A DNA stretch of 64,000 bases. Origin: Frankia alni ACN14a (GTDB lineage: Bacteria; Actinomycetota; Actinomycetes; Frankiales; Frankiaceae). The stretch is from assembly GCF_000058485.1 (NCBI RefSeq), contig NC_008278.1, forward strand, positions 614,962 through 678,961, written 5' to 3'. Of this stretch, positions 3,042 through 10,098 are shown piece after piece. Each line of letters begins with the position of its first letter. The first letter of the stretch is position 1. Made by a program: the position numbers and the translations under genes. The notes below the pieces were generated by a model. The model saw only the letters and a program-made list of their open reading frames with translations, was not told where the DNA came from and did no database searches.

Positions 3042-3608
3042 GTGGGATTGCACTTGAGCCAGATCAACGAGGCCGACGAACTGCTGACGAACGACCCGTT
3101 GGCGCTGCTGATCGGGATGGTGCTGGACCAGCAGATCCCGTTGGAGCGGGCGTTTGCGGCGCCGTACGAGTTGGTGGCGCGGCTGGGGCGGCCGCTGGAT
3201 CCGGCGGAGCTTGCGGCGTTCGACCCGGACGAGTTGGGTGCGATCTTTTCCCGGCAGCCGGCGTTGCATCGCTTCCCGGGTTCGATGGCGAAGCGGGTGC
3301 AGTCGCTGTGCCGGCTACTGCTCGACTCCTACGATGGTGATGCGGCGGCGGTGTGGACGACAGCGGCCGACGGCCGTCAGCTGCTCAAGCAGGTCGCGGC
3401 GCTGCCTGGTTTCGGCGAGCAGAAGGCCAGGATCTTCGTTGCCCTGCTCGGCAAGCAGCTCGGTGTGACCCCGCCCGGCTGGCGCGAGGCGTGTGCACCG
3501 TTCGGCGAGGACGGCAGCCACCGCTCCGTCGCCGACATCACCAGCCCCGAGTCCCGCAGCAAGGTCCGCGACTACAAGAAAGCTATGAAGGCCGCCGCCA
3601 AGGCGTAG
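3042..3608 (+). CDS. HhH-GPD-type base-excision repair protein
   Basis: About 188 residues. The sequence has the small actinobacterial HhH-GPD pattern: LIGMVLDQQIPLERAF near the start, a middle helical region, and a helix-hairpin-helix-like LPGFGEQKARIFVALL segment around residue 125-140. HhH-GPD proteins remove damaged bases from DNA; this small group is poorly characterised and may be only structurally related. I chose GTG at 3042 (next codons GLHLSQ); a GTG at 3021 is also in frame. No strong ribosome-binding site is visible. A truncated copy of its 5' end lies 0.8 kb upstream. Codon usage has more TTG/GCG than neighbours, consistent with transfer. Confidence 0.75.
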   Translation: MGLHLSQINEADELLTNDPLALLIGMVLDQQIPLERAFAAPYELVARLGRPLDPAELAAFDPDELGAIFSRQPALHRFPGSMAKRVQSLCRLLLDSYDGDAAAVWTTAADGRQLLKQVAALPGFGEQKARIFVALLGKQLGVTPPGWREACAPFGEDGSHRSVADITSPESRSKVRDYKKAMKAAAKA

Positions 3609-3626
3609 CCGCCCTGACCGTAGTAT

Positions 3627-4046
3627 CGGTCTGAAGCCGCATCTGGTCGAGAGGCGGAAGCTTGCGACCGATCCGCGGTTCGTGGAGAAGGTCCGTGACG
3701 TCGTGGGGGTGTCTCTCGACCCGCCGGGACCTCGCGGTGAAGTAGTGGCGCTGAGCCATCTGCGGTTCCACCTGCGCTTCACCCCGACCTCGTCGTCATG
3801 GATGAATCTGGTCGAACGCTGGTTCGTTGAACTCAGCCGCCGGAAACTCTGCCGTTCGACCCACCGGTCCGTCGTCGAACTCGAAGCCGGCATCCGAAAG
3901 TGGATCAGTGCGTGGAACAAGGGACCCGAGGCCGTTCGTCTGGACGAAGACCGCCGACCAGAGTCTCGGAACCCTCGCTGCCTACCGCGGACGAATCAAC
4001 GACGCAGGATATTGGGCGGCGATTTGGATCATCGCCCGCCGAAGAT
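3627..4046 (+). pseudogene. IS630-family transposase, internally deleted and frameshifted
   Basis: Three pieces of one transposase are visible. GLKPHLVERRKLATDPRFVE and the following LDPP belong before the first catalytic Asp. After an in-frame deletion that removes the DDE core, FHLRFTPTSSSWMNLVERWF to WISAWNK follows. A frame change then gives DPRPFVWTKTADQ and LAAYRGRIN in another frame. IS630 elements move by a DDE transposase; this copy cannot be active. Part of it (3699-3805) recurs inverted at 5407-5516, so the MFS gene between them is bracketed by inverted IS630 scraps. Terminal inverted repeats and a TA duplication could not be located. Confidence 0.8.
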
Positions 4047-4085
4047 AATCCGATACGTGGACATCGTTAAAACTTGGTACATACA

Positions 4086-5333
4086 ATGCCGAAGGTGAGC
4101 GATGCTACCGGAGTCGGGACAGATGCCAATGTGCACCAAGAGGTTCCTCTCCGGCGCAACGAGGGCTTCCGTATGCTGTGGACCGGCCAGCTGCTCTCTG
4201 ATACTGGCTCAGGGATCGGCCTGCTCGCCTATCCGCTGCTTATCCTGGCGCTGACCCATTCGGCGGTGCTCGCCGGGGTGGTGGGGACGTCGCGGGCAAT
4301 GACCCTGCTGTGCCTGCAGCTGCCCGCCGGGGCGCTCGCTGACCGGTTCGACCGGCGGCTGACGATGATCATTTGTGACACGATGCGCGCGGCCCTGCTG
4401 GCCCTGCTCGGCATCCTGATCGCGACCGATCTCGCGTCCTGGCCGGTCGTGCTGGTCGTGTGCCTGATCGAGGGAGGCGCAGGCGCCATCTTCAACCCGG
4501 CGGCTGCCGCGGTACTGCCGGGGATCGTGCCGGACGGGCAACTGGAGCAGGCGTCGGCCGCCACCGAAACCAGGACCTACGCTGCCGCCCTGGCCGGCCC
4601 GGCGCTCGGCGGGGCTCTTTTCGGGCTGGGCCAGGCCGTCCCGTTCCTCGCCAATGCCGTCTCCTACGTTGTCTCGTTCGGCACGGTGAACAGGATCCGG
4701 GGGCGGTTCCGCCCGGAGAACGTGGCCGAGCGCAAGGCGTTGTGGCGCGAGGTGGCCGACGGCCTGCAGTTCGTCTGGCAGGTGCCGATCCTGCGCGCGG
4801 TAGCGATAACGGCACCCCTGATGAACTTCGCCTTCACCGGCGTGATCTTCACCGTTACGCTCGCGCTGCGTCATCACGGTACCTCCACTGCGGTGCTCGG
4901 CCTGGTGCAGGCGACCATCGCGGCCGGCGGGCTGCTCGGCGCCGTAGTGGCCCCCCGGCTGCAGGGGCGCATGCGCCTGGGAGCCCTGGCCACCACGATC
5001 ACCCTGGCTGGGGCGCTGCTGTTCGGTGCTGCGGCGCCGCTCCTCCCGTCGCCGCTGGTGGCGGCGCCGATCGCTCTGGCGCTGCTGCTCGCGCCGGCCG
5101 TGAACGCCGCGCTGTTTGCCGTGACGCTCCGCAGTGCACCGGCAGAAATGCGCGGGCGGGTCATCAATACCGTGGTCATGGCGACTACCGCGCTGGCTGC
5201 GCTGGCGCCGCTGACCGCTGGGCTGCTTGTCCAGCACGTGTCCGGCGCCTGGACGGTGGGCGCCTTCGCCGCCACGGCCGCCACGGCGGCAGTGCTGTGC
5301 CTGATCCTGCCAGGTTTGCGGAATGCTGCATGA
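4086..5333 (+). CDS. MFS transporter (MFS_3 / EntS-like exporter)
   Basis: About 415 residues with roughly 12 hydrophobic helices. The early FRMLWTGQLLSDTGSGIG segment, the loop GALADRFDRR after helix 2-3 and the central SYVVSFGTVNRIRGRF region are typical of the MFS_3 group of proton-driven exporters acting in the cytoplasmic membrane. Start: ATG at 4086 (MPKVSD); TTG at 4074 and GTG at 4095 are alternatives and no clear ribosome-binding site helps. The gene stands alone between two inverted IS630 fragments, suggesting it arrived with them. Substrate unknown. Confidence 0.85.
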   Translation: MPKVSDATGVGTDANVHQEVPLRRNEGFRMLWTGQLLSDTGSGIGLLAYPLLILALTHSAVLAGVVGTSRAMTLLCLQLPAGALADRFDRRLTMIICDTMRAALLALLGILIATDLASWPVVLVVCLIEGGAGAIFNPAAAAVLPGIVPDGQLEQASAATETRTYAAALAGPALGGALFGLGQAVPFLANAVSYVVSFGTVNRIRGRFRPENVAERKALWREVADGLQFVWQVPILRAVAITAPLMNFAFTGVIFTVTLALRHHGTSTAVLGLVQATIAAGGLLGAVVAPRLQGRMRLGALATTITLAGALLFGAAAPLLPSPLVAAPIALALLLAPAVNAALFAVTLRSAPAEMRGRVINTVVMATTALAALAPLTAGLLVQHVSGAWTVGAFAATAATAAVLCLILPGLRNAA

Positions 5334-5406
5334 GCCGCACGGATGAAGATGTCGGCAAGGGCAACGTGAAATCCATCCCAATGACGCGTCAAAACAACCG
5401 CAGCAG

Positions 5407-5516
5407 TCATCCATGACGACGAGGTCGGGGTGAAGCGGAGGTGGAACCGCGGGTGGCTCAGCAGCGGACTTCTTCACCGCGGGGGTCCCGGCGGGTCGAG
5501 ATACACCCCCACGACG
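5407..5516 (-). repeat. Inverted copy of an IS630 transposase fragment
   Basis: Read in reverse, this segment matches 3699-3805 at about nine of ten positions, including the codons for FTPTSSSWM and VGVSLDPP. Both copies share the same internal deletion joint, so one was copied from the other (or from the same defective element) after the deletion occurred. Together the two arms bracket the MFS gene. Confidence 0.75.
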
Positions 5517-5765
5517 CCTCGGCGTGCTGCACGGCGGCCGGTCGCGCGGCGCTTCGGAATCGATCTCGACGGTCCGGCCACGTACATGCGCGAGTACCTG
5601 TGCGTCCTGCGGCCGCTGCTGCACGACGGCTCGCGGCGATGCTGCGCGTCGCCGGTGAACTCGCTGACGGAACGGTGACCTGGATGGCCGGTCCCCGGAC
5701 CATCGGCAGCCACATCGTGCCCGCCATGACCGCCGCCGCCGCCGGCGGCGCCGCGGTGCGGGCAT
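5514..5765 (+). pseudogene. Partial copy of luciferase-like F420 oxidoreductase gene
   Basis: This segment is closely similar to the middle of the intact gene at 9172-10098. It begins at the shared GCCTCGGCGTGCT, includes RRPVARRFGIDLDGPATYM, and continues to the WMAGPRTIGSH region. Relative to the intact gene about 100 bp are missing between 5629 and 5638 (corresponding to 9573-9680), which shifts the frame. Both ends of the gene are absent. It is a decayed duplicate directly joined to the IS630 fragment. Confidence 0.85.
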
Positions 5766-6232
5766 CCTGCTCGTCCAGCTTCTTCGTAGCCGCGGAGCAC
5801 GCGTCATCGGCGCGGCACGGTGAAGCTGGATGCCGTGACCGCCGCCGGCACCGGCTCGGGCCAGTCCGGTCTGCCGAGACGGCTTTGTTCGGCCTTCCGC
5901 GTCCGAGGATCATGTCCCTGCGGCTGTCTCACCATCATGGTGGTGCCGACCGATGAGTCTCCACGTGTCGCGGTTGCTGACCCAGACCAGGGCATCGAGG
6001 ACTCGTCGCAGGGCGATGCTCTTCCACAGGCGTCCGGTCTCCGTCGCGCTCGGCGAGCGTCCTGGGCCGTCCCCTCCCTGTCATTCTCGGGTGAGACACC
6101 TGTGTCCTCCCAGGTCAGAAGCACTTTCCTGTGTCCCGGCACCGGCTACCCTCATAGTAGGATCAGGTAACGTTCGAGATGAACAGCCCAGGCTGGCCAC
6201 CGTGACAGTCACCATGAATCGCCGAGGTTTAC
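5766..6232. other. No recognisable gene
   Basis: About 470 bp between the luciferase-like remnant and the small gene at 6233. Open frames exist on both strands but show no family resemblance or ribosome-binding site. Near the end, the sequence around 6160-6230 drops in GC and probably carries the promoter of the next gene, though I cannot assign -35/-10 boxes with confidence. Confidence 0.4.
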
Positions 6233-6655
6233 ATGGCCGACAAGCAAGAACTGTTCGATGCTGTTGTCGAAATCCTCCGGCGTCGATATCAGATCTCTGG
6301 CCTGGACTCTACAGCTGGAACATTCGATCTTCGTGATGAGGATCGAGCGGTTCGCGTCACGCTTGAACCGAATCTTCTGAAGGAGTACTTCAGCCGGCTG
6401 GACGAGGAGAATTCCGTCCTCGGTCTTGCCGAAGCGCAGGGGGATGAGCGGGACCGAGTCCGGTTGCAGTACATCATCATGCTGATTCAGGAATACTTCG
6501 AGTCGGACACCTTCTTGTCGCTTGTCGAGATCCGGCTCGACCGGTCGGCTGATGGTCGCGTCTCTCTTGTCCGTCGACGAGGCACCGAACGTAGATCCTT
6601 TTCGTTGGCAGACATGGAAGGTGGCTTTTGGTGGTCCGACCGACCTGGCACCTGA
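6233..6655 (+). CDS. Hypothetical protein, 140 aa, low GC for the region
   Basis: I do not recognise this protein. It starts MADKQELFDAVVEILRRRYQ and is rich in charged residues. It appears helical at the start (an EILRRRY helix), has a central YIIMLIQEYFESDTF helix, then a short basic/beta tail ending SFSLADMEGGFWWSDRPGT. No signal peptide or membrane segment. Base composition is clearly lower in GC than surrounding genes, which suggests horizontal transfer together with the TIR gene nearby. Its stop codon lies inside the first copy of a 17-bp triple repeat. Small size and position in a scrap-rich patch would fit a defence or toxin-antitoxin accessory protein, but nothing in the sequence proves that. 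Confidence 0.6.
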   Translation: MADKQELFDAVVEILRRRYQISGLDSTAGTFDLRDEDRAVRVTLEPNLLKEYFSRLDEENSVLGLAEAQGDERDRVRLQYIIMLIQEYFESDTFLSLVEIRLDRSADGRVSLVRRRGTERRSFSLADMEGGFWWSDRPGT

Positions 6656-6698
6656 GAGCACGTCGCACCTGAGAGCACGTCGCACCTGAGAGCACGTC
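6648..6698 (+). repeat. 17-bp tandem repeat, three perfect copies
   Basis: The unit GCACCTGAGAGCACGTC occurs three times head to tail without a mismatch. The first copy contains the TGA stop of the gene at 6233-6655. Perfect identity indicates a recent expansion. Confidence 0.9.
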
Positions 6699-6849
6699 GT
6701 ACCCATCGAAGCGAGACTGGCGCGCCGCAAACGGCGTGTCCCTTCCCCTCGAGGGCATCGGCGGGCTCGACTGACGGGCGGCGATCGACGGCAACCTTTC
6801 CTGCGACGGGCGGCATGTTTACGTCTGCCGGACCTGAGGTGTTCTAGGC

Positions 6850-7065
6850 GCGGGCGATTCGATCGAGTCCGAGCAGGCTGAGGTCTCGGTACGGGTGCCG
6901 GCGTCGTCGGCGGATGCGCTCAAGGCGTGCGCGGCGGCTGAGCACCTCCCCACGTCAGCCCTGGTTCGGCGCATCCTGTCGCGCGCGGTGGAGAGCCGCG
7001 ACGCGCCCGTGATGACCGAGGACCAGGTCGAGGAGATCGTGCTGGGTGCGATCTGCGAGTCGGTT
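6850..7065 (+). pseudogene. Ribbon-helix-helix type antitoxin remnant
   Basis: The plus strand reads VSVRVPASSADALKACAAAE, then HLPTSALVRRILSRAVE and MTEDQVEEIVLGAI. This resembles VapB-like antitoxins with an N-terminal DNA-binding ribbon-helix-helix. There is no ATG/GTG/TTG start upstream of the conserved VRVPA strand within the open frame (the first GTG, at 6895, falls inside it), and the 3' end runs into sequence antisense to a VapC fragment. I therefore treat it as a truncated antitoxin whose own toxin gene is missing. Confidence 0.5.
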
Positions 7066-7206
7066 CGCGCGGGCCTCGGGTGTCCTGGCAACGAGAACGC
7101 CGAACTGAAGCTCGGCGATGCTGATGACGCTGACCGCGAGTTCACCGGGGATCGGAAGGACGTCGGTGGCGACCAGCACGCTGGTGTGCAGGACGCCACG
7201 ATTCAT
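6955..7206 (-). pseudogene. VapC-like PIN toxin, truncated after the N-terminal third
   Basis: Starting at the ATG at 7206, the frame gives GVLHTSVLVATD, then ELAVSVISIAELQFGVLVA and TPEARANRLA. This is the first ~50 residues of a PIN-domain toxin, with the conserved TS and the Glu of IAELQFG; the usual first Asp is replaced by His (LHTS). After ANRLAD the sequence stops resembling PIN and is antisense to the antitoxin remnant on the other strand. The ATG overlaps the stop of the upstream small gene as ATGA, the usual antitoxin-toxin coupling. Missing C-terminus and mutated Asp imply it is inactive. Confidence 0.6.
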
Positions 7207-7418
7207 CGATCTTCCCAGGGGTCCGTTAGGGTGTTGTCGACGAGGTCGCGATCGCCGGGCCAGTCGGCGTCGGACGGCAGGGCGAAGACCTCCGCGAGAT
7301 CGTCCCAAGGCCGCCATGCACGCGGGGTCACGGCGGTTGGGCGCATCGGAGGGCGTCGGAGATCGTTGAGGGTCAGGTCCGCCCGGGTCTTGGTCACCTT
7401 CCGAGACTGGGCGGGCAC
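7203..7418 (-). CDS. Probable antitoxin partner of the truncated VapC
   Basis: A 71-residue reading frame ending in LVDNTLTDPWEDR, immediately upstream of and overlapping the VapC-like start by four bases (ATGA). Size, position and coupling are those of a type II antitoxin. The acidic C-terminal half (DLAEVFALPSDADWPGDRDL) would be the toxin-neutralising part. The N-terminal half does not show a convincing DNA-binding fold, and the start (ATG near 7418) lacks an obvious ribosome-binding site, so the gene may be 5'-damaged too. Confidence 0.45.
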   Translation of the reverse strand: MPAQSRKVTKTRADLTLNDLRRPPMRPTAVTPRAWRPWDDLAEVFALPSDADWPGDRDLVDNTLTDPWEDR

Positions 7419-7446
7419 CGAGCGGGCCGCACTTCACGGCCATCAT

Positions 7447-8886
7447 TCAGGCATGCTGCAGATGGTAGAGAACCTCTTTATTATCCTTGTTGTCCAGCAG
7501 GTAGAGTTGATCATTATCAAACCAGAATCTCAAGAATCTCTGCTCGCCGGGGGCGCTGATCTGCATGAGGTATTCTGCCTCGTTTCCTTGGCCGGCCGCC
7601 TTGTCTCTACCCAGAACCTGATATTCGCCTGAAGTCTCTGGATGATCATCGTCGTAGTGCAGGATGAAGGTCTCTTGGGCGGAGAAGTTGACCCTGGCCT
7701 GACATTCTCCTCCTGCTGTACCCTGAGGGTATTCCTGGTAAATGCAATTCCAGCTTCCGTGGAGTCGCTGGGTGATTCCTGGAATTTCGGAAGGGGTATT
7801 GGAAGGAGTGCTGGAGGGAGTGCCAGTAGCACCTCCAGCGCCTCCCGCGGGCCTGGGAGTCGCGGACTCTCTCGGTTTGTCGACCGATCCCTCGTCCCGA
7901 CCGTCGGGTGGGATCGGCGTCGGCGTGCTGGCAGTCGTTGCCGGCGATCTGGTGGGAACGGGTGTGGTCGGCGGGTCGGGACGTGTCGTCGGTGGCCCTG
8001 ATGGCGACCTGGGAAAATACATGACCAGCGTGACCGCGGTGACCGCAGTGATCATGGCGCCGATGATCAGGGGCATGCGGCGCGACCGACGAGGATCTCT
8101 GCCCGATCTCTTCTCGCCCCGGTGGGACGGTCCGTGTGCCGGGTGGTCGGCTGCGACATCGACGCGTCGACCAACACTGACGGCCGGTTCACGTGAGACG
8201 ATCTGCAGGCCGGAGGGAGCGCTGGATCGCAACGGCGACGGGCCGGGGAGCTGGGGAGTCCGACCATGGTTCGGCGCCGCGCGGCCGCCCGTGTCCGCAC
8301 TGGCCGGTGCCGCCGGAGTCCACGGAAATCCAGGTGGTTCCGTGGAGGGCTGCGTCATGGGCGGGATCGGGCCATCCGACGGCGCGATGGCACCGTCGGC
8401 GGCGCTTCCGGGAATACCTGGTTCGAGCGTTCCGTCGTTGGGGAAGGCAGGCTGGGTCAGTGGTTTGGCGCGACCGCCCACCACCGCCGTGATCTGCGTC
8501 CGCAGGCGATCGCCGGCTTCCTTCCGGGAGCAGCCGAACAAGTCGAACGACACGATCCCGCCCAGAACGTCGGGCCGGCGGCAGTTCTCGATGCGGACTG
8601 GCACCAGGCGACGCCGGAAACCCTGGGGATCGGCCCGGTAGACGGTCTGCCATTCCGCCGTCCCGTATACAGACGAAAGATACTGCTCGGAAAGTACGGC
8701 GAGCATCCGGGTGGATCGTTCGATTCCGGCGCGCAGCTGACTCGTCCAGTGTGAGCCGGGGACGAAGTCCCACTCCGGGAACAGTACGCTGTAGCCGGCG
8801 TTTTCCAACTCCCAGGCGATCCACGCGGCCCAGGCCCGGTCGACGGCCGCATACGAAACAAAGAAATCCCACTGCTGCTCGGCCAC
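7447..8886 (-). CDS. TIR-domain protein with transmembrane segment and C-terminal sensor-like domain
   Basis: 479 residues from a GTG start. Residues 5-135 form a bacterial TIR domain: WDFFVSYAAVDRAWAAWIA, the PEWDFVPGSHW loop, MLAVLSEQYLSS, and GTAEW, whose Glu78 sits at the position of the catalytic glutamate of NAD-cleaving TIR domains. Residues ~140-270 are proline-rich and disordered. Residues ~271-292 (PLIIGAMITAVTAVTLVMYF) form one membrane span, followed by a Pro/Thr-rich stalk and a compact domain from ~374 (GSWNCIYQEYP to the C-terminus). Predicted topology: TIR inside, C-terminal domain outside. The 3' third is lower in GC. Neighbours are toxin-antitoxin scraps and a luciferase-like gene. 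TIR proteins in bacteria often act in phage defence by depleting NAD; here the ligand and trigger are unknown. Confidence 0.85.
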   Translation of the reverse strand: MAEQQWDFFVSYAAVDRAWAAWIAWELENAGYSVLFPEWDFVPGSHWTSQLRAGIERSTRMLAVLSEQYLSSVYGTAEWQTVYRADPQGFRRRLVPVRIENCRRPDVLGGIVSFDLFGCSRKEAGDRLRTQITAVVGGRAKPLTQPAFPNDGTLEPGIPGSAADGAIAPSDGPIPPMTQPSTEPPGFPWTPAAPASADTGGRAAPNHGRTPQLPGPSPLRSSAPSGLQIVSREPAVSVGRRVDVAADHPAHGPSHRGEKRSGRDPRRSRRMPLIIGAMITAVTAVTLVMYFPRSPSGPPTTRPDPPTTPVPTRSPATTASTPTPIPPDGRDEGSVDKPRESATPRPAGGAGGATGTPSSTPSNTPSEIPGITQRLHGSWNCIYQEYPQGTAGGECQARVNFSAQETFILHYDDDHPETSGEYQVLGRDKAAGQGNEAEYLMQISAPGEQRFLRFWFDNDQLYLLDNKDNKEVLYHLQHA

Positions 8887-9171: not shown

Positions 9172-10098
9172 ATGATCCCGATTGGGCTCGCCCTCGTACC
9201 GCCCGGACCCGAGGCGTCGAACGCCATCGACGTGCTGGTAGGCCAGGCCAAAGCTGCCGCGGCGGCCGGCCTCGGCTCGGTCTGGCTGGGCCAGCAGTAC
9301 GACCTCGACGCGCTCACCGCCCTCGCCGCGCTGGCCGTACACGTGCCCGGGGTCGGGCTCGGCACCGCCGTCACCGTCACCCACAGCCGGCATCCGATCA
9401 CCATGTCCAGTCAGGCACAGACCGTGCAGGCGGCCAGCGGTGGTCGGCTCACCCTCGGCCTCGGCGTGCTACACCGGCGACCGGTCGCGCGGCGCTTCGG
9501 GATCGATCTCGACGGCCCCGCAACCTACATGCGCGAGTACCTATGCGCCCTGCAGCCGCTGCTGCGCGACGGCACGGTCGTCTTCGAGGGTGACATGATC
9601 ACCGCAGACACCAGCGGATTCTCCGGCCACGTCGCCGGGAGCACCCCGCCCGTCGTCCTCGTCGCCGCGCTTGGCACGGCGATGCTGCGCGTCGCCGGCG
9701 AGCTTGCCGACGGAACGGTGACCTGGATGGCCGGCCCCCGGACGATCGGCAGCCATATCGTTCCCGCCATCACCGCCGCCGGCGGCGGGGCCGCGGCGCC
9801 GCAGGTCGCGGTGAGCCTGCCGGTGTGCGTCACCGACCATCCCGAGGAGGCCCGCCGCCGCGCCGCCGCCCATCTCGCGTGCTACGCCGACCTCCCCTCC
9901 TACCAGGCGATGTTCGACCAGGAGGGCGCCGCCAATCCTGCCGAGGTTGCGATCATCGGCGACGAGCGGCACCTCGAAACGCAGCTTCACCGCCTCACCG
10001 ACGCCGGTGCCACCCGCTTCATCGCCAAACCCACCGGGATCACCACCGCCGCCGAGCGCGATCGCACCCTTCAGGCCCTCGGCGGTCTGGCGGGATGA
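9172..10098 (+). CDS. F420-dependent LLM-class oxidoreductase (TIGR03564-like)
   Basis: 308 residues from the ATG at 9172 (IPIGLALVPPGPEASNAIDV). The alpha/beta-barrel signature of luciferase-like F420 enzymes is clear: SVWLGQQYDLDALTALA, ITMSSQAQTVQAASGGRLTL, MREYLCALQPLLRDG, ADGTVTWMAGPRTIGSH, and a C-terminal ATRFIAKP strand. Members use reduced coenzyme F420 to act on varied organic substrates in the cytoplasm. An in-frame upstream extension back to 8923 lacks homology, so I rejected it. A partial, frameshifted duplicate lies at 5514-5765. Substrate unknown. Confidence 0.9.
   Translation: MIPIGLALVPPGPEASNAIDVLVGQAKAAAAAGLGSVWLGQQYDLDALTALAALAVHVPGVGLGTAVTVTHSRHPITMSSQAQTVQAASGGRLTLGLGVLHRRPVARRFGIDLDGPATYMREYLCALQPLLRDGTVVFEGDMITADTSGFSGHVAGSTPPVVLVAALGTAMLRVAGELADGTVTWMAGPRTIGSHIVPAITAAGGGAAAPQVAVSLPVCVTDHPEEARRRAAAHLACYADLPSYQAMFDQEGAANPAEVAIIGDERHLETQLHRLTDAGATRFIAKPTGITTAAERDRTLQALGGLAG

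Follow-up and report, generated by a model that had tools for sequence, protein, structure and literature searches.

Gene layout and composition

The window, the whole stretch of 64,000 nucleotides of Frankia alni ACN14a that was analysed, lies in a genome of a single contig (7,497,934 bases). It carries a gene of 479 amino acids on its minus strand, which starts with GTG and runs from position 8886 to 7447. The features of the gene, all on the same strand, follow the order TIR domain, linker, transmembrane helix and ectodomain (7447..8886), and a full-length orthologue is found in F. gtarii (L030/L037). The TIR_2 domain occupies residues 8-122 (8521..8865) and is predicted to be cytosolic; Pfam, profile matches to the PDB and dN/dS values support the domain. 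It is followed by a linker rich in Pro, Ser, Ala and Gly (residues 136-265, 8092..8481), predicted to be intracellular, where P, S, T, A and G make up 60% of residues and Pro 19%. An Arg/Lys-rich juxtamembrane stretch closes the linker and reaches to about residue 270. The single transmembrane helix corresponds to residues 273-291 (LIIGAMITAVTAVTLVMYF, 8014..8070). Beyond the helix lie a stalk rich in Pro, Thr and Ser (residues 293-369, 7780..8010), predicted to be outside the cell, with 75% P/S/T/A/G (26% Pro) and a length that varies among orthologues, and finally an orphan all-beta C-terminal domain (residues 370-479, 7450..7779), described from a structural model, a fold search and the lack of a Pfam match. 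GC content is 0.65 in the TIR part versus 0.52 in the outer domain.

The helix scores 2.21 on the Kyte-Doolittle scale (19 residues) compared to 0.74 for the runner-up segment, and when the whole protein was shuffled 2000 times, only 3 of the resulting sequences equalled its hydrophobicity. Net charge is +5 before the helix, on the TIR side, and +1 after it. Hydropathy gives one membrane span, and the charge bias places the TIR domain inside. Judging from hydropathy, charge bias and the types of domain, the window protein very probably has its TIR domain inside the cell and its C-terminal domain outside. A preliminary description made from the letters of the window alone had proposed a GTG start, a Pro-rich linker, a membrane span at 271-292 and partly low GC, and these features were all recovered here, the span being single and having its basic residues on the TIR side.

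Conservation and selection

The F. gtarii orthologue has the identical layout and 75% identity along its whole length, and the F. gtarii and F. torreyi loci show mostly 87-95% DNA identity to the window over the longer aligned parts. Pairwise dN/dS of the window gene against F. gtarii, calculated by two methods on a single pair of sequences, is 0.38-0.40 overall, 0.14-0.18 for the TIR part (residues 1-135), 0.55-0.73 for the linker and 0.27-0.59 for the ectodomain. Purifying selection is strong on the TIR domain, weaker on the ectodomain and weakest on the linker. Conservation in F. gtarii together with the overall ratio indicates that the open reading frame is a real gene. The F. torreyi copy is broken up into pieces in several frames, and the gene is therefore dispensable there.

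Genomic surroundings

The upstream, divergent neighbour is an F420-type LLM oxidoreductase, which adjoins the gene in F. gtarii too and is also present at the F. torreyi locus. On the downstream side, about 4 kb (3600-7450) are missing from the F. gtarii locus. This stretch contains an MFS gene, a DDE transposase fragment, oxidoreductase fragments and the truncated remnant of a VapBC-like toxin-antitoxin pair (6955-7418, minus strand), the pair being intact at the same locus of F. torreyi (L038:8358-8986). Pieces of the oxidoreductase gene are duplicated (5516-5756 and 9458-9796, with an identity of about 89%), and a further duplication, in inverted orientation, lies at 3699-3805 and 5407-5516. 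An orphan gene of 140 amino acids with low GC (6233-6655, plus strand) is 56-89% conserved in four other Frankia genomes. It was rejected as a partner of the TIR gene, being present in four congeners that do not have the TIR gene's ectodomain and missing from the two that have it.

PADLOC gave no meaningful match for four neighbouring genes, among which neither a Thoeris nor a CBASS partner (ThsA, CD-NTase) was found. The preliminary description had reported toxin-antitoxin scraps around the gene and had read them as a defence island. The scraps are real. The argument for a defence island is weak, since PADLOC is blank for the four neighbours scanned, the stable neighbour is an oxidoreductase and the toxin-antitoxin debris falls in the stretch that F. 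gtarii does not have. TIR proteins are furthermore not rare in this genome, with 28 TIR_2 matches.

Occurrence of the layout among Frankiaceae TIR proteins

Close relatives of the window TIR are present in 32 of 35 Frankiaceae genomes. The survey for the same architecture that the preliminary description had called for showed that it recurs: the layout of TIR domain, linker, single transmembrane helix and outside domain was found in at least 14 of 158 distinct related TIR proteins of Frankiaceae genomes, a sample in which moderately long open frames were preferred and whose percentages are hence not unbiased rates. The filter called for one transmembrane helix after the TIR domain, followed by 60 or more residues; 19 proteins passed and 14 were judged convincing. 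Four of those that passed (L101, L113, L142 and L056) were not counted because they resemble helical-repeat, kinase-like or several-helix membrane proteins, and neither was L166, whose frame seemingly extends into unrelated coding sequence. Charge before the helix is positive in all 14, and charge after it is near neutral in most.

The ectodomains are diverse. They comprise WD40 propellers (L046, L052, L085, L168), an NHL propeller (L100), a PKD domain (L055), solute-binding proteins (SBPs) of the NMT1_3/TAXI type (L159, L173), a domain like the SBPs for branched-chain amino acids (L165), Cys-containing orphan domains (L051, L071), a TPR-like outer region (L023) and, in two orthologues, the barrel of the window protein. 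Assignments were made by Pfam for L085, L168, L100, L055, L159 and L173, and by eye for the rest. WD40 repeats are more often intracellular, and their presence among the recurring ectodomains counts against a receptor that senses outside the cell. In the genome of the window, L191 and L194 have TAXI/NMT1_3-like domains and a transmembrane helix without a TIR domain, and these domains are relatives of the L159 and L173 ectodomains.

On a FastTree phylogeny of the TIR domains, the transmembrane layout takes 10 changes over 14 tips, compared to a mean of 13.6 with shuffled labels. The layout clusters slightly yet scatters over the tree, a pattern consistent with domains having been joined more than once, and with 10 changes for 14 tips it probably arose repeatedly.

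The L165 ectodomain of the SBP-like kind is found again, likewise behind a transmembrane helix, on proteins with other inside domains, namely a Ser/Thr kinase (L199, Pkinase 8.5e-53), an EAD1 protein (L196, EAD1 4.5e-14) with its close relative L197, and a DUF4062 protein in the genome of the window (L198, G000:C1:3532413-3533051). In actinobacterial Ser/Thr receptor kinases the kinase lies inside and the sensor outside. As the layout of the kinase version is this established receptor-kinase layout, the simplest reading of the TIR versions is that they have the same topology and serve as sensors too. The swap of the L165 ectodomain is the strongest support for the receptor idea, and it comes from relatives of the window gene and not from the gene itself. 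The proposal of the preliminary description, that ligand sensing outside may switch on an NAD-cleaving TIR domain inside, is in this way partly supported, through the SBP and PKD ectodomains of relatives and through the ectodomain family held in common with a receptor-type kinase.

No description of a TIR domain in a transmembrane receptor layout in bacteria was found in the literature searched, which was mainly open-access. The Frankiaceae set apparently represents an undescribed arrangement, in which a shared TIR module is joined via a membrane helix to diverse outside sensors. We tentatively propose, inclining slightly to doubt, that these proteins form a family in the style of Toll-like receptors (TLRs), where an NAD-processing TIR domain has been joined independently and many times, via a Pro-rich linker and one helix, to swappable sensors of the solute-binding, PKD, propeller and barrel types, so that outside ligands would directly trigger TIR signalling. 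If this holds, the Frankiaceae TIR receptors would share at least one type of sensor with receptor kinases.

C-terminal domain

The C-terminal domain has 110 residues (370-479) and begins with a GxW motif (GSW). It matches no Pfam family, in line with the earlier impression of an outside domain of no recognised family. An AlphaFold2 model calculated from three sequences consists of a helix and eight strands (mean pLDDT 67.7, pTM 0.61); a second prediction, led by the F. gtarii orthologue, was of poor quality (pLDDT 46.7) and did not reproduce it. In Foldseek the model matches the Yersinia cyclic-dinucleotide receptor Cap15 best (E 2.9e-3), with designed barrels, CRBP, FABP and lipocalins close behind. 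With VIA-align, OssO (Z 9.1) and Cap15 (Z 8.8) are again near designed barrels, CRBP and lipocalins, and a fold search against viral structures gave no match below E 0.001. Cap15 was ruled out as a specific relative because unrelated barrels score alike. The structure prediction and fold search suggested in the preliminary description hence yielded a modelled barrel, but with low pLDDT values and no specific fold, and we tentatively regard the modelled domain as a small, lipocalin-like beta-barrel whose family is not assigned. Cys381 and Cys395 are present in both intact orthologues and could form a disulfide, which would suit a location outside the cell.

The Cap15 match could be taken to mean that the window protein is an effector of the Cap15 kind, whose cytosolic barrel binds a cyclic nucleotide and which acts downstream of an intracellular alarm. 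The barrel of Cap15 is cytosolic. In the window protein, however, the single span sets the TIR domain and the barrel on opposite sides of the membrane, and the conserved Cys pair and the SBP and PKD ectodomains of relatives favour the outside for the barrel. In addition, a scan of four neighbouring proteins showed none from a nucleotide cyclase family. Together with the unspecific match, this makes a second-messenger effector very improbable.

The outer domain was restricted in our searches to three Frankia species, in one of which (F. torreyi) the gene is degraded. Among 394 genomes of the class, no relatives were found outside Frankia, two marginal matches (E 0.006-0.01) both being in open reading frames without a TIR domain, and in a collection of 84,980 species the domain was found in two further Frankia records only. 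An ectodomain so specific to its lineage, carried on a Pro/Thr/Ser-rich stalk, would also be expected of a mere membrane anchor, where the outer domain tethers the protein to the wall or envelope of the cell and the trigger comes from within. Three related TIR proteins (L112, L081, L072) have a transmembrane helix with almost nothing beyond it, as such an anchor might. Other relatives, however, carry SBP-type domains that bind ligands, and one ectodomain of this type is also found on a receptor-type kinase. We therefore consider an anchor rather improbable and sensing by the outer domain the better account.

TIR domain and Glu78

TIR_2 (PF13676) matches with an E value of 3.4e-34 and 118 bits, compared to a curated cut-off of 28, and in the Pfam scan of the protein no further match was obtained beyond TIR_2 and a related TIR model. 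The TIR domain with a Glu in GTAEW, as it had been described, was confirmed, and the Glu is residue 78 (8653..8655), putatively the catalytic residue known from TIR NADases. When the TIR domains of the genome are aligned, Glu78 shares its column with the Glu of SPWCAYE in the paralogue L026. It thus falls in the WCxxE column of the catalytic Glu, the alignment on which, along with the membrane span, the preliminary description had staked its proposal. The motif of the window protein, SVYGTAEW, replaces WCxxE with Tyr in place of Trp and Gly in place of Cys. A Glu occupies the column in 143 of the 158 related TIR domains and in 11 of the 14 of the transmembrane type; the three exceptions (L071 with Gln, L159 and L023 with Val) suggest that some members may be non-catalytic. 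According to the survey by Toshchakov and Neuwald 2020 (PMC7075850), the Glu of this column does not always track activity, and its presence is accordingly no proof of catalysis.

Matches of the sequence profile to the PDB are led by MyD88 (1.5e-10) and TLR2 (1.7e-8), and bacterial TIR domains, including AbTIR (1.5e-4), come after them. This order could indicate a non-enzymatic scaffold receptor similar to MyD88 or TLRs, which brings other TIR proteins or effectors to the membrane. The large number of TIR_2 matches in the genome fits such a scaffold, as the same cell has roughly two dozen TIR proteins and several of them could serve as partners, and so does the loss of the Glu in some relatives of the transmembrane type. 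The high conservation of Glu78 among relatives speaks against it, whereas MyD88 does not have this Glu according to the alignment and to the same survey (PMC7075850). A scaffold is in our view unlikely, and an enzymatic TIR domain is the reading we retain.

By eye, the domain also matches the pattern given for 'group 6' TIR domains in that survey (-RDFFVSY-, -WDAVPG- and two Trp in helix A; PMC7075850), with WDFFVSY, WDFVPG and the invariant W19 and W22.

Other TIR proteins of the genome differ in size or architecture. L011 (G000:C1:5449000-5456000) is a very large TIR protein with an open frame of 2491 amino acids and iHD-CE/HD-CE domains, and TIR frames of similar size, about 2200-2300 amino acids, occur in several other Frankiaceae. 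L013 (G000:C1:5953714 onward) combines a TIR domain with a C-terminal DUF559 (nuclease-like) domain. L009 (G000:C1:5764026-5765936) has a TIR domain at both ends of an ATPase-like middle, and the second one is without the Glu of the catalytic column.

Proposed mechanism

Our best explanation is a single-pass membrane receptor, its N-terminus inside and its C-terminus outside, that senses outside the cell and switches the TIR domain inside. The orphan C-terminal domain would sample the cell-wall space, where its ligand would probably be a small molecule or another protein acting as its partner. The binding event, or clustering, would be relayed via stalk, helix and Pro-rich linker, and would bring the cytosolic TIR domains together. 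Once assembled, these TIR domains would most likely use Glu78 to cleave NAD or a nucleotide resembling it, and their output may be a signal molecule or the depletion of NAD. Taken as a whole, the mechanism could equally well turn out right or wrong. The layout, the conservation of Glu78, the purifying selection on the TIR domain, the faster evolution of the outer domain and the recurrence of the layout in proteins whose ectodomains are bona fide ligand binders are computed results; ligand sensing, TIR assembly and NADase activity are what we infer for the window protein. Besides the WD40 ectodomains, the Tyr and Gly at the Trp and Cys positions of the motif, the Glu missing from 3 of the 14 transmembrane-type proteins, the weak ectodomain fold and the degradation in F. 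torreyi count against this explanation.

The relatives with recognisable SBP ectodomains make the receptor idea testable, as their ligands can be guessed. Since Frankia inhabit root nodules, a symbiotic or host-derived ligand is possible for the window receptor, whose role may lie in defence, competition or symbiosis.

Comparison with known systems

The TIR fold and the Glu in the catalytic column are held in common with ThsB of Thoeris, the TIR effectors of CBASS and the NADases AbTIR and PdTIR. Unlike these cytosolic defence proteins, the window protein spans the membrane, has an outer domain and has no recognised partner gene among the four neighbours scanned. Like the group 6 TIR domains of Toshchakov and Neuwald 2020 it has the betaA and BB-loop patterns and the two Trp of helix A; members of that group are described as mainly actinobacterial, often with an N-terminal TIR domain and TPR repeats and more than 700 amino acids long, and the passages of the survey concerned with them make no mention of a transmembrane receptor layout (PMC7075850). 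Cap15, the CBASS membrane effector, is likewise a membrane protein with a small C-terminal barrel and gives the best Foldseek score, but it has no TIR domain and the fold match is not specific.

The layout resembles that of actinobacterial receptor Ser/Thr kinases such as PknB and PknD, which have an N-terminal signalling domain inside, a Pro-rich linker, a basic juxtamembrane stretch, a single transmembrane helix and a C-terminal sensor outside. In proteins of this type the kinase is followed by a linker, one helix and a PASTA, NHL or other sensor. The window protein differs in that its inside domain is a TIR domain and in that its ectodomain was found in our searches on the TIR gene only.

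With animal TLRs the window protein has in common, in layout only, a TIR domain inside and a sensor outside on one single-pass chain. The chain is reversed, with the TIR domain N-terminal; there are no LRRs, the ectodomain having no LRR or other Pfam domain; and the Glu is kept, whereas many TIR domains of the TLR pathway are without it. The TIR systems known so far from bacteria are interpreted as alarms that act within the cell. If our explanation is true, bacteria can also link a ligand from the environment straight to TIR signalling, in a Toll-like way and from independently assembled parts. The window protein alone would be a new combination of known parts, and as a class these proteins could be the bacterial counterpart of Toll-type receptors.
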